Positions 6,168-32,291 of a stretch of 32,291 nucleotides of DNA are shown here, piece by piece (the stretch's first letter is position 1; each line of letters starts with the position of its first letter). The DNA comes from a virus. The notes below the pieces were generated by a model. It made no database searches and had not been told where the DNA came from. It saw nothing but the letters and a program-made list of their open reading frames with translations. The translations under genes were made by a program, and so were the position numbers. The stretch is from IMG/VR virus record IMGVR_UViG_3300046792_000034, positions 1 through 32,291 of that record; one strand, given 5' to 3'.

Positions 6168-7300
6168 GACAGGAGTGTCCATTTGTGAGTCATGGGAGTA
6201 CCGTCCAGATTGAGCGTCCAGTCCGTTGACAGGGCTGGGACGTTGAAGCCGATCACGGGGTCGATGACGGTCAGCCTATCAAAATGCCAATGCATCGGGT
6301 TGGGCGACGTACTCAGCTCGACCTTCGTACTGAATGCCATATCAGCATCAATGGTGATCTGTGCCGCGTTGATGAGCGACGGCTGATCGGCTGCATCGAT
6401 TTGCATAACCTTGGTGATCACTCGGCCACGCGCTGCCTGACTCGTCGCGCCGGTAGCAATGTTGTTGAACGTGTAGATTCCATTGCCCTCAACCGGGGCC
6501 GCGTCGCTCGTATTGTTCTGCCGAACGAACACCCAGCGATTAGGAGTGTCAAAGAAATCTGTCTCCATCACCCGGTCTGGATAGATGATCGATGACGTGC
6601 CGGTGGTGTCGTAGGTCCATTCCGATGCTCGGTTAATCGGCGTCGTATAAGGGTGGATGTGTAGGCGGCCATCCCAGTCCGACCAGATCCCTTGGTAACC
6701 AATTGAGTTGAGCAGATCATTGATGATGGTCAGCCATTTAGTCTGGTCATCAATGGGATAAACCTTTGCTGACGGGAGCGTATTGTCCCCCGACCAGTCA
6801 GTAGTCCACTGAGTAAAGCCACGCGCGGTGAGGATTCCTTCCACCGTTGTTAGGACGCTGTTACCGGCCGGAATGGAGTATGTCTGTCCAACTAGGTCAG
6901 ACAGCGGGAGCATAATATCGAAGCCGTCCGCTTCGAAGACTCCCGGGGAAGTCTGGATCTCGCGCCGGGGAGAGGCGAGGTAGTAGGCGCCCATGTTCCA
7001 TCGTGTCAATGAAATTGTGGGTACCTTGATCTGGAAATATGGCCGCACAATCATGTTCGGCCAGTCGTGGTCAGGCTTCGTAATGTTCAGTACGCAGCTA
7101 CCGTGCAGCTCGTTGAATGCGCCGCGAGAAACCGTGCTACTGGGAGGGGATAGGTAGGTCGAGATGTCGTCAATGTAGTTGAGGTTCTTGTCGATGATCT
7201 CAAGCCCACAGTCGACGGTCATCGTCTCGCTACCTTGGATAAGGTCGATGACCTGTGCATCAGTTAGATGTCCACGAAAGTATCCATGCATGTCTTGCAT
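6164..7300 (-). CDS. Tail hub-like minor tail protein
   Basis: A 378-residue protein with features of siphovirus tail hub (Tal/gp27-like) proteins in actinophages: an early VDCGLEIID strand, RGAFNELHGSCVLNI, then RWNMGAYYLASPRRE. A middle motif (TKWLTIINDLLNSIGYQGIW) is followed by DWDGRLHIHPY, the pattern usually seen where the hub ring folds. The C-terminus ends in a beta region with PMTHKWTLLS, typical of these proteins. The hub would join the tail tube to the fibre-bearing tip. It is placed between a distal-tail-like gene and an OB-fold protein, consistent with the role. ATG follows the preceding TAA directly. Confidence 0.7.
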   Translation of the reverse strand: MQDMHGYFRGHLTDAQVIDLIQGSETMTVDCGLEIIDKNLNYIDDISTYLSPPSSTVSRGAFNELHGSCVLNITKPDHDWPNMIVRPYFQIKVPTISLTRWNMGAYYLASPRREIQTSPGVFEADGFDIMLPLSDLVGQTYSIPAGNSVLTTVEGILTARGFTQWTTDWSGDNTLPSAKVYPIDDQTKWLTIINDLLNSIGYQGIWSDWDGRLHIHPYTTPINRASEWTYDTTGTSSIIYPDRVMETDFFDTPNRWVFVRQNNTSDAAPVEGNGIYTFNNIATGATSQAARGRVITKVMQIDAADQPSLINAAQITIDADMAFSTKVELSTSPNPMHWHFDRLTVIDPVIGFNVPALSTDWTLNLDGTPMTHKWTLLS

Positions 7301-29393: not shown

Positions 29394-29593
29394 CGATTCC
29401 GGTCTTCCCACGAGAGAATCAGGAATCGGCCAGCGTTCTTCCACCGCCATCCGATCGTCAGACCACGAGTCGCTCGCGGCGAGGACCACGGCCAGAGCAC
29501 CGGGCCAAACCTCGTTGCCACGAACTTGGTTCCCTTGCCAGGGATGTGCACCTTTTGGAGCTTCACGTATTTACGCCCATCGCTTGTAGTCAT
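29381..29593 (-). CDS. Unknown small basic protein, 70 aa
   Basis: A basic protein: KYVKLQKVHIPGKGTKFVAT then RFGPVLWPW, and RFLILSWEDRNRCC at the end. Short proteins with a HxPGxGTKFVATxFGPVLWP block followed by a basic loop and a LILSW end are common near head and accessory genes of actinophages, without known role. ATG 29593 overlaps the previous gene by 23 bases; GTG at 29566 is an alternative that starts just after the preceding stop. Confidence 0.6.
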   Translation of the reverse strand: MTTSDGRKYVKLQKVHIPGKGTKFVATRFGPVLWPWSSPRATRGLTIGWRWKNAGRFLILSWEDRNRCCS

Positions 29594-29993
29594 CGACCAG
29601 GAGATCGACCCAGAACGTCATGTTGGTATTGGCGGACGACGTCACCTTGATCCATCGCCAACCCGAGCCGACCTTGACGATCTTCTCGGCCGCGAGTCCA
29701 CTGGCGGTCAGGACGAAGGTTGTCGATACGTCAGTGGTCGGGGTAGAGACGTCGGCATACGTCGCTGCAACGAACCCAGACGAGTCCGAAGTGGGCGACA
29801 CCGAGATCTGGTACGTGCACGTCGGAGTGGCACCAGCCGATTGGGTGATGCGCACCTTCGTGCTATTGGCCTTAGCGTGCGGGCCACGGTCGCCGACATT
29901 CGTGGTGTCGACGTTGCCGGTCTGTCCGGCAAACGCGGACAGCGGGATGATGATCGGGCCTACGGCCGAGATCGTTGCATCGATGGTTGCCAT
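29571..29993 (-). CDS. Beta-rich probable virion protein, 140 aa
   Basis: Rich in Thr, Ser, Val and Gly: ATISAVGPIIIPLSAFAGQT, STKVRITQSAGATPTCTYQI, STTFVLTASGLAAEKIVKVG and WRWIKVTSSANTNMTFWVDL. This is the composition of an Ig-like or jelly-roll structural protein, such as a head decoration unit, far from the head genes. The ATG lacks a clear ribosome-binding site; a hairpin precedes it on the minus strand. Role is inference from composition. Confidence 0.6.
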   Translation of the reverse strand: MATIDATISAVGPIIIPLSAFAGQTGNVDTTNVGDRGPHAKANSTKVRITQSAGATPTCTYQISVSPTSDSSGFVAATYADVSTPTTDVSTTFVLTASGLAAEKIVKVGSGWRWIKVTSSANTNMTFWVDLLVDDYKRWA

Positions 29994-30005
29994 GCCATGA
30001 CCATA

Positions 30006-30040
30006 GTGGTAGGCCGATCCGCTTGCAACCGGCCTACCAC
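30006..30040 (-). terminator. Hairpin after the second ParB-like gene
   Basis: GTGGTAGGCCG and CGGCCTACCAC form a perfect 11-bp stem with a 13-base loop, beginning ten bases past the gene stop. It is followed by TATGG rather than a T run. It may end part of the ParB transcripts before the accessory block. Confidence 0.7.
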
Positions 30041-30049
30041 GCGGTCAGC

Positions 30050-30859
30050 TCAGACCCAGTTCGGCAGCCGGCGAGTCTTGCGACCCTTGTTGTACAACCC
30101 GAGCACGGTCTCCGCCATGGCCCGAGTAGCGGTCCATTTGAGGTTTTCCCTATTCGAGTTGACCAGGCCGATCATCTGGGCCGGGGTGCCGGACTTCGCG
30201 AGGTTGTCAACGAGGCCGGTGAACTCGATCGCGTCGCCGTACCGGGAGATGAACGCGACCAGGCCGGTGAATAGACGAGCGTCCATGACGACGCGCGAGA
30301 ATCCCCATGCCTTCGTGAGTATCTCGACCGCGCGCTCCGTGGCGATCGGGTCCTGCTTCCATCCGGCCTCGATCGCCATGACCGCACGGAATGACCCGTC
30401 CTTCTGAGAGTCCTCCACGTGCCAGCCGTACCGAGCGAGCATGTTCGATATCTCGCGAGCCGGCGACTTGTTCTCGACCACGCGGACCAGGAACGACGCG
30501 ATGTTGGTTGGCTTCGCTGTGTTGTTCAGCAGCCGGAACATCCGCGCCTCGGCCTTCCGGTCCAGTCCAACGTGGACACGGCACGGTGTAACGATGGTGT
30601 CATCGAACACCTTGCGTAGCGCGGCCACTCGGTGCGCGCCGTCAAGGATGTGGAACTTCCCTCGGGGCCGCGTCGACACATCGATGATGCCGATGGCGTC
30701 CAGGTCCAGCTCACCGGCGATCTTCTCGACCCGCTTGGGTTCGGTCGGCCGCTGAACGGAGGGATCGACGAAGAGATCCGAGAGACGGATCTCGATGACG
30801 TCGTTCTGGTTGAGGTCAGGAGGAGCGGGCTTGAATTCGATCCTATCGATGGTCGTCAC
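30050..30859 (-). CDS. ParB-fold nuclease-like protein (DUF6551-type)
   Basis: A 269-residue protein. After a start with VIEIRLSDLFVDPSVQRPT (about 21-39) comes the ParB N-terminal pattern RVEKIAGELDLDAIGIIDVS and KFHILDGAHRVAALRKV at about 69-84, the box that in ParB proteins binds CTP or metal. The rest is helical (AEARMFRLLNNTAKPTNIAS, REISNMLARYGWHVED) and ends in a basic KGRKTRRLPNWV. It may bind DNA or act as a nuclease; no helix-turn-helix is obvious. ATG overlaps the preceding stop (ATGA), so the two ParB-like proteins are made together. Confidence 0.75.
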   Translation of the reverse strand: MTTIDRIEFKPAPPDLNQNDVIEIRLSDLFVDPSVQRPTEPKRVEKIAGELDLDAIGIIDVSTRPRGKFHILDGAHRVAALRKVFDDTIVTPCRVHVGLDRKAEARMFRLLNNTAKPTNIASFLVRVVENKSPAREISNMLARYGWHVEDSQKDGSFRAVMAIEAGWKQDPIATERAVEILTKAWGFSRVVMDARLFTGLVAFISRYGDAIEFTGLVDNLAKSGTPAQMIGLVNSNRENLKWTATRAMAETVLGLYNKGRKTRRLPNWV

Positions 30860-31725
30860 TTGACGCCTTTCAGTTTGTTCATGAAGTTGGTCAATGATGC
30901 GCGGAAGGGGAAGATCTGAGCGTGTACATCAGCGGCCAGCTCTGGACTTATGAGCAATGTGTCCAGACGCTTAACAAGAAAGTCAACTCCTCTCATTGCG
31001 TCGATGAGTCCCTTGAGTGCGGTCTCCTGCTCTGCGATTTCCTTATCGCGAGTCTTTGCCGCCGACAATGGCTTGCCGCGCGACTTGATTTCTCGGACCT
31101 TTCGCTGGGCGGTGGTAACGGGGAGTTCCCCAGAATCCATTGCCTCGATAACCTGCTCGACCTCGGGGCGCTTTTCTGGCTCGACTTCCTCGACCGCCTT
31201 GACGACTTCCCGGGCGCGAGAAATCGTCTGATAGGAAACGCCGAGTGCGTCGGCTACTCTGGCGCGAGTGTCTCCCGCTGGCTTATCGTCTCCAGTGCCG
31301 TACTCCGGTGCGGGACTGGGTTCGATTCCTCGCCGAGTGCGATTGCCTTTCACGGTCGCGGCACTACGCCTCGCCTTTGCGGCAGCTTCTTCGTACGGCT
31401 TAATCAATTCAGCCGCCGCGACCAACTCGGACGGAGTCATTTGCTTGCGTTCGGTATTCTCGTCCCGCTCGATGAGCAACTCGGTTAGGACGTCGTCAAA
31501 CGTGTCGACGATCATGACCTGAATCTCGGTGCGGCCGAGATACTCATGGGCTGCGACCCGTCGCGCTCCGGAGATCAACCGACCGGTGGAGCTGACCGTG
31601 ATGGGGTTGATCAACCCGCGCGCCTCGATCGACTTAGCGAGGCTCTCGACCTCGCCGAGATTCCGGCGGAGACGACGCTCTGTGTTGATCTCGCTAATCT
31701 TCATGATCTTGCTAGTGGCTGCCAA
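30856..31725 (-). CDS. ParB/Spo0J-like DNA-binding protein
   Basis: A 289-residue protein. Residues 8-100 show the ParB N-terminal fold: ISEINTERRLRRNLGEVESLAKSIEARGLINPITV, RLISGARRVAAHEYLG at 49-64 (the GxRR box) and LIERDENTERKQMTPSE at 84-100. A helix-turn-helix is likely at about 154-176 (RARVADALGVSYQTISRAREVV). The C-terminus is coiled coil (about 220-285). The natural target would be a nearby DNA site, and the repeat array upstream is an obvious candidate. TTG at 31725 has GGGAG nine bases before it; an ATG at 31704 has poorer support. Confidence 0.82.
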   Translation of the reverse strand: MAATSKIMKISEINTERRLRRNLGEVESLAKSIEARGLINPITVSSTGRLISGARRVAAHEYLGRTEIQVMIVDTFDDVLTELLIERDENTERKQMTPSELVAAAELIKPYEEAAAKARRSAATVKGNRTRRGIEPSPAPEYGTGDDKPAGDTRARVADALGVSYQTISRAREVVKAVEEVEPEKRPEVEQVIEAMDSGELPVTTAQRKVREIKSRGKPLSAAKTRDKEIAEQETALKGLIDAMRGVDFLVKRLDTLLISPELAADVHAQIFPFRASLTNFMNKLKGVK

Positions 31726-31934
31726 TGGATCTTACTCCCGTGTGCGGTGGGCCGAGCTTCCGTGTGACCTCCGCACCCTAGCTCGCCAGAATCTCCCGGG
31801 CAACCCCCCGAACGCACAGGAACCCCGGCCGTAGCGGGCCAGCCGCCAAACGTCCGAGGTCCCCTTGCCCGGCACTTCCCCGGGCGCCGCGCGTGGTTAG
31901 CGGGTGCTCGGCCACGGTAGCATGCTCGAGAATT

Positions 31935-32246
31935 CGGACATATGTAGGCAATCGACCTACGAACGGGCACGAACCGGGCAACTGTTTCACGAGTAACACG
32001 GACAGACCTCGCAGAACTGGACAATGCGTGGCAGAAAACCCCATAAAACTCGGACATTCGCGGATAAACCAGGAGACTTCTAGGTGCGATCGCTCAAAAC
32101 GGCCGAAACCTCGCAGAAACGGACAGGAAATCCTCGCAGCGCTGCCTAAACCGGACAGACCTCGCAAACATCTCGGATCGATGCATTTGTCCTGTCCTAC
32201 TCCATGCCTCGTTGTCCGGTAATGTCCGAATCCCAAACCGGACATT
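31935..32246. repeat. Array of CGGACA and CCTCGCA motifs on both strands
   Basis: CGGACA (or TGGACA) starts at 31935, 31999, 32018, 32051, 32120, 32152 and 32239, and its complement TGTCC(G/T) at 32188, 32193, 32213 and 32223. CCTCGCA starts at 32007, 32109, 32132 and 32160. A 15-base copy CGGACAGACCTCGCA is exact at 31999 and 32152; CCTCGCAGAA plus two bases plus GGACA is shared at 32007 and 32109. Spacing is irregular. By chance fewer than one such hexamer is expected in 310 bases. Confidence 0.85.
32221..32246. promoter_or_regulatory. Inverted repeat, possible operator
   Basis: AATGTCCG and CGGACATT face each other across ten bases with perfect 8-bp arms. It is the only exact dyad in the array and stands about 43 bases before a possible rightward start. 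An overlapping ATCCCA/TGGGAT dyad at 32230-32251 shares part of it. Confidence 0.6.
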
Positions 32247-32288
32247 GGGATCTTTAGGGGATTTTTGGCCGAGGGAGTAATTTAGGCG

Positions 32289-32291
32289 ATG
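32289..32291 (+). other. Possible start codon of a rightward gene cut by the window end
   Basis: The final ATG follows GGGAG about twelve bases earlier and AGG two bases earlier. If used, it would mark the first plus-strand gene, making the preceding noncoding region a divergent control region. Only the start codon is visible. Confidence 0.3.

Follow-up and report, generated by a model that had tools for sequence, protein, structure and literature searches.

The DNA analysed here (the window) is an entire IMG/VR record, G000, of 32,291 bp that probably derives from an actinobacterial phage and, since the record is classed as linear, is probably a fragment. Near its right end, at 31931–32246, lies an array of short degenerate repeats that keep step with the DNA helix and resemble the binding sites of the Streptomyces regulator BldC. 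On the sequence evidence, we hold at roughly even confidence that this array is an operator for divergent promoters of a type that would be bound by a BldC-type nucleoprotein filament.

The recognisable genes of the window up to 31725 all lie on the minus strand and run leftward in the order ParB-like pair, small genes, terminase, portal, capsid, tail and lysin, and one of the small genes between the ParB pair and the terminase is a probable HNH gene as judged by eye. The array occupies the gap between this operon and a probable rightward gene, which would open at the ATG at 32289–32291 (plus strand) and is truncated by the contig end. The gene at the head of the leftward operon, ParB2, is preceded by the ribosome-binding site GGGAGTAA at 31732–31739 on the minus strand, and the same sequence faces rightward at 32273–32280 on the plus strand, 8 nt before the ATG; the two sites were identified as inverted repeat I11. 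The array is therefore flanked by identical ribosome-binding sites, each pointing outward. These sites support an earlier suggestion, made from the sequence alone, that the repeats form an operator set for divergent promoters, as does synteny: in four of four annotated relatives (phiGD20-1, EW, Ramsey and RayTheFireFly) the ParB-type genes come after a small HTH/cro-like gene, which in turn diverges from a repressor. The ParB2–DUF6551 pair (30050–31725) heads the late operon in the window; the corresponding genes of phiGD20-1, Ramsey and Staphylococcus phage EW head the early operon beside the repressor. The leader of the ParB operon (31726–31930, minus strand; 205 bp, 71% GC) contains no repeat units, and its RNA structure was not unusual in a folding check. 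Searches for an Rfam match, a sigma-70-like promoter and a terminator found none, and no DNA relative of 29500–32291 was found among named phages.

The pentamer GGACA occurs eleven times within 31931–32246, seven times on the plus strand (31936, 32000, 32019, 32052, 32121, 32153 and 32240) and four times on the minus strand (32188, 32193, 32213 and 32223). The sequence-only reading had counted at least eleven CGGACA/TGGACA-type hexamers on both strands, which is true only of the looser GGACA type, because the remaining two sites are AGGACA; the strict count of CGGACA or TGGACA is nine, with six plus one on the plus strand and two on the minus strand. Its four copies of CCTCGCA were recovered, every one on the plus strand (32007, 32109, 32132 and 32160), as was the composite 15-mer present twice exactly (CGGACAGACCTCGCA, at 31999 and 32152). 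In 2000 dinucleotide-preserving shuffles, YGGACA (nine observed) had a mean of 0.46 and a maximum of 5, and CCTCGCA (four observed) a mean of 0.05 and a maximum of 2. The CGGACA cluster of the array is the top hexamer cluster of the entire window (log10 P −9.7; runner-up −6.8). Scans of IMG/VR with the exact 15-mer and 17-mer composites returned only scattered single matches, without arrays.

The consensus of the eleven GGACA sites is asymmetric, roughly RAANYCGGACA. Within the main arm of the array (31931–32180, plus strand), the AA dinucleotide exhibits a period of 10.3 bp with a power of 14.1, compared with a mean of 3.4 and a maximum of 10.6 in 500 shuffles, and this power exceeds that of all 630 other 250-bp windows sampled. 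Cutting the arm every 10.35 bp aligns AATTCGGACA, AACGGGCACG, AACCGGGCAAC, GAACTGGACA, AAAACTCGGA, AACCTCGCAG, AAACGGACAGG, AAACCGGACAG and others. CGGACA and CTCGCA fall into one common phase (joint phase test p 0.026), with no significant phase for the GGACA sites alone (p 0.46). The all-base fold score of the arm is the maximum of the window (5.4 SD) and stands at a z of only 3.4 against shuffles of the arm itself, at least one of 300 being higher; these values apply to an arm, a period range and a motif that were all picked after inspection of the sequence. CTCGCA looks like a variant of the CGGACA unit because both share this phase, and the AA period together with the co-phased motifs would correspond to about 24 copies of one unit. 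What had been described as a mixed two-motif pattern makes better sense as a single degenerate, helically phased unit that is AANYCGGACA-like, with CTCGCA and CGGGCA variants. The array is probably composed of one asymmetric unit of about 10.3 bp, present in about 24 degenerate copies over 250 bp. Next comes a short arm on the opposite strand (32187–32229) with four GGACA sites, among which GATTCGGACA-TTACCGGACA form a tandem pair at 10-bp spacing, and then a final plus-strand site, AAACCGGACAT, at 32235–32245.

A literature search with decamers of the array surfaced a paper on BldC amid mostly irrelevant primer matches. BldC is a 68-residue MerR-like winged-helix protein that forms head-to-tail oligomers on direct repeats, with a published optimum of CAATTCGGACAATTCGGACA and a consensus of AATTXXXX(C) (PMC5859096). 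A looser consensus, AATT(N3-4)(C/G), has also been given; the number of repeats varies, minor-groove shape allows degenerate copies to be accepted, and its authors caution that BldC sites are not reliably predictable from sequence (PMC6428758). At smeA-sffA, one DNA turn separates the bound BldC molecules (PMC11963761), and the spacing in the oligonucleotide as printed is about 10 bp. The array likewise consists of direct repeats that fit AATT(N3-4)(C/G), at least in degenerate form, spaced by about one helical turn according to its AA period and the joint phase and fold values given above. As in the Streptomyces operators whiI and smeA-sffA, the repeats are asymmetric, with four A/T-rich bases and a C/G a few bases on; the copies are degenerate, and AATTCGGACA is found identically at 31931 (PMC5859096, PMC6428758). 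The unit spacing of about one per helical turn is that of smeA-sffA, whereas whiI, the best-studied BldC repeat, has 9 bp in place of 10.3 bp. Allowing up to two mismatches from AATTCGGACA, the array contains six sites, where 0.19 would be expected at the rate of the rest of the window, and composition-matched scrambled motifs score a mean of 0.26 and a maximum of 4. The array differs from the Streptomyces operators in its about 24 units plus a reverse arm versus 2–4 units and in its place in a phage intergenic region. Since the copies in the array resemble the BldC site, a filament of a BldC-type protein may serve the phage as a genetic switch.

IMG/VR was scanned for two copies of AAWYCGGACA within about 50 bp, and the candidate records were then read. 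At least four other phages contain dense clusters: G022 (72 kb; 27 AANYCGGACA, mostly at 37.2–41.7 kb), G441 (92 kb; 35 AANYCGGACA), G442 (57 kb; clusters at 25.9–26.3 and 27.1–27.5 kb, which lie on opposite strands) and G443 (29 kb). In each of these phages, the highest-scoring period-folded windows fall near 9.6–9.9 bp. The folded unit profiles of G442, G022 and G441 correlate with that of the window at 0.68, 0.65 and 0.61, respectively (p 0.002 or below; 99% of the null at 0.53), and for G443 the correlation does not reach significance (0.41, p 0.11). Sites that differ from AATTCGGACA at no more than two positions number 6–9 per 320 bp in the five array phages including the window versus 1–3 in 14 other phage genomes, a count that is partly circular because the phages were found by motif search; the period and profile comparisons are less so. 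The phages that share the array unit have no relationship in their other genes.

Two of these phages contain multi-kb regions among small genes that are saturated with AAWYCGGACA-type words at 9.6–9.9-bp spacing (L177–L180 in G022, 37.2–41.7 kb; L357 in G441, 1–13.6 kb). Some copies lie immediately upstream of ribosome-binding sites, a position similar to that of start-associated sequences in cluster K phages. G022 also encodes 13 predicted tRNA genes in L177 and L178, all on the minus strand. Beside the facing arrays of G442, two paralogous small HTH proteins are encoded (L356:5339-5647 and 6736-7080; 51% identical over 77 aa), which are candidate array binders; no clear solved relative was found for them, and the proteins themselves were not found in the sequence of the other array phages examined. 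Matches upstream of the terminase in G004 and G006 were rejected as arrays and are instead a long inverted repeat, placed before the terminase region, which runs leftward (L192:10760-10840 in G004, L195:14803-14877 in G006). The arms of the two repeats differ by matching changes (CCGG TTTG / CCGC TTTG), and the sequences suggest a conserved hairpin or palindromic site.

The BldC query used for protein searches was confirmed by its full-length match to PDB 6ama/6amk. Homologues were identified in G022 (39%, E 1e-7) and G441 (39%, E 2e-5); both keep Arg30, Trp31 and the GGH wing, and in G022 the BldC-like gene is preceded, at a distance of about 60 bp, by AAATCGGACA. No BldC-like gene was found in the 32-kb window and no clear homologue in the array phages G442 and G443, and no array was found in G021 and four named phages that encode a BldC-like gene. 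Zaheer, UmaThurman and Schnabeltier each carry a repressor-type gene, and the first gene running divergently from it is the BldC-like one.

The array could also serve as an operator for some other regulator without a BldC-type filament; an immunity repressor or a Cro-like protein, with its gene just to the right of the contig end, would be an example. The divergent repressor and cro-like gene adjoining the ParB-type genes of the four annotated relatives favour this, as does L125, where CGTTCCC/GGGAACG sites form an array upstream of the ParB pair (L125:3940-4200), in what looks like a divergent region of repressor/cro type. The operators of L125 are palindromic, whereas the units of the window are asymmetric and degenerate, keep their phase for 24 turns, and recur in phages whose other genes are unrelated; we regard this explanation as somewhat unlikely.

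The sequence-only reading also proposed a centromere or silencer bound by the ParB-like protein encoded next to the array. Its description of the first gene of the leftward operon as ParB-like agrees with our predictions for ParB2 (30856–31725, minus strand), which is composed of a ParB-type NTP-binding N domain followed by an HTH and a helical C domain. The N domain carries G-x-R-R and E-N-x-x-R motifs, which are invariant columns in the alignment. ParB2 exhibits a match to Pfam ParB_N below the cut-off plus PHROG matches, and a single-sequence scan with it returned no matches. The AlphaFold model (pLDDT 82.5) matches Noc, ParB and KorB in Foldseek and the sequence profile agrees, so that ParB2 is predicted to have the ParB/Noc/KorB fold. 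The next gene, ParB1 (30050–30859, minus strand), overlaps ParB2 by 4 bp and encodes a ParB-like DUF6551 protein (Pfam PF20188, E 1.6e-11), a family in which some members are reported to bind CTP or ATP (PMC12704722). Relatives of one or both proteins were found in Mycobacterium, Gordonia and Staphylococcus phages.

Binding by these proteins would fit the adjoining array, the NTP-binding fold with its HTH, and G022, where the ParB pair and the motif occur together. A further parallel is mycobacteriophage RedRock, whose ParB is described as binding eight direct 8-bp repeats, parS-L and parS-R being, by that description, short asymmetric direct repeats near parB in an actinophage (PMC7157519). 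The window differs from RedRock in that no parA was recognised in it, its contig ending at the array, and in that the distribution of its motif does not follow that of the ParB family. Among 31 further records that contain ParB1 or the pair, only one (G022) has motif arrays; the ParB2 homologues whose upstream regions were examined, including those in five actinobacterial chromosomes, lack such an array there, a ParB2 match is absent from the three other array phages, and the ParB2 recognition helix does not set G022 apart from its relatives. Sites of ParB, Noc and KorB are palindromic, in contrast to the asymmetric repeat of the window with its one unit per turn. Judged on these comparisons, binding of the array by ParB is poorly supported, and a centromere or silencer is unlikely.

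Two further functions appear very improbable. The first is an attachment site, in which the repeats would be arm-type sites for a BldC-like excisionase and the right-hand gene an integrase. Excisionases of the Xis family are closely related to BldC and form similar filaments (PMC6428758, PMC11963761), and the BldC-like gene of UmaThurman is annotated 'excise'. The sites of lambda Xis and ICE RdfS are comparable to BldC operators in that their winged-helix proteins belong to BldC's fold class and polymerise on them head to tail with relaxed sequence preference (PMC11963761). They differ from the window, which has far more units, about 24 being many for an excisionase site, and in which no integrase, tRNA or att core was found up to its end at 32291. 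A comparison with 396 actinobacterial genomes gave only chance-level short matches and none that was core-like.

The second is a replication origin with iterons, also raised from the sequence alone, for which no positive evidence emerged in the window. Replication origins can contain phased A-tracts and iterons. In other phages, CGGACA iterons such as TGTCCGGAAACCGGACA, present seven times in L305, lie inside HTH-protein genes that resemble replication initiators (L302, L305 and L311; by count also L298, L275, L260, L239 and L238), and these are possible in-gene origins. Among the matches listed, the other CGGACA arrays from the IMG/VR scan are regular, mostly palindromic iterons within such genes. 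The iterons of L302, L305 and L311 have CGGACA half-sites in common with the window, and AAACCGGACA is identical. They are regular, palindromic and within a coding gene, whereas the units of the window are single, asymmetric and degenerate. The array holds no DnaA box at up to one mismatch, and no initiator gene was seen in the window, which ends before the right-hand gene.

Under the favoured reading of a BldC-type filament operator, which covers most of what was observed, a small MerR/Xis-like winged helix-turn-helix protein, either host BldC or a phage homologue, would assemble on the array head to tail with one protomer per helical turn, each protomer being positioned by the narrow minor groove of the A-rich tract and the C/G a few bases downstream. 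The filament would bend and cover the gap that separates the leftward ParB-pair/late operon from the divergent rightward gene, and would therefore repress or co-ordinate the two promoters. It is proposed more tentatively that in phages, probably of actinobacteria, long phased degenerate arrays (250 bp to several kb) nucleate extended filaments of host BldC or a phage homologue, a class not described so far. The array would be a natural substrate for filament assembly that is directly testable, and the 10-bp phase plus AANYCGGACA provides a sequence signature for finding further arrays. If the favoured reading is correct, the phage uses the BldC/Xis filament architecture over about 24 turns, compared with the 2–4 protomers of characterised sites, and phage gene control may be tied to the regulator that times development in Streptomyces.
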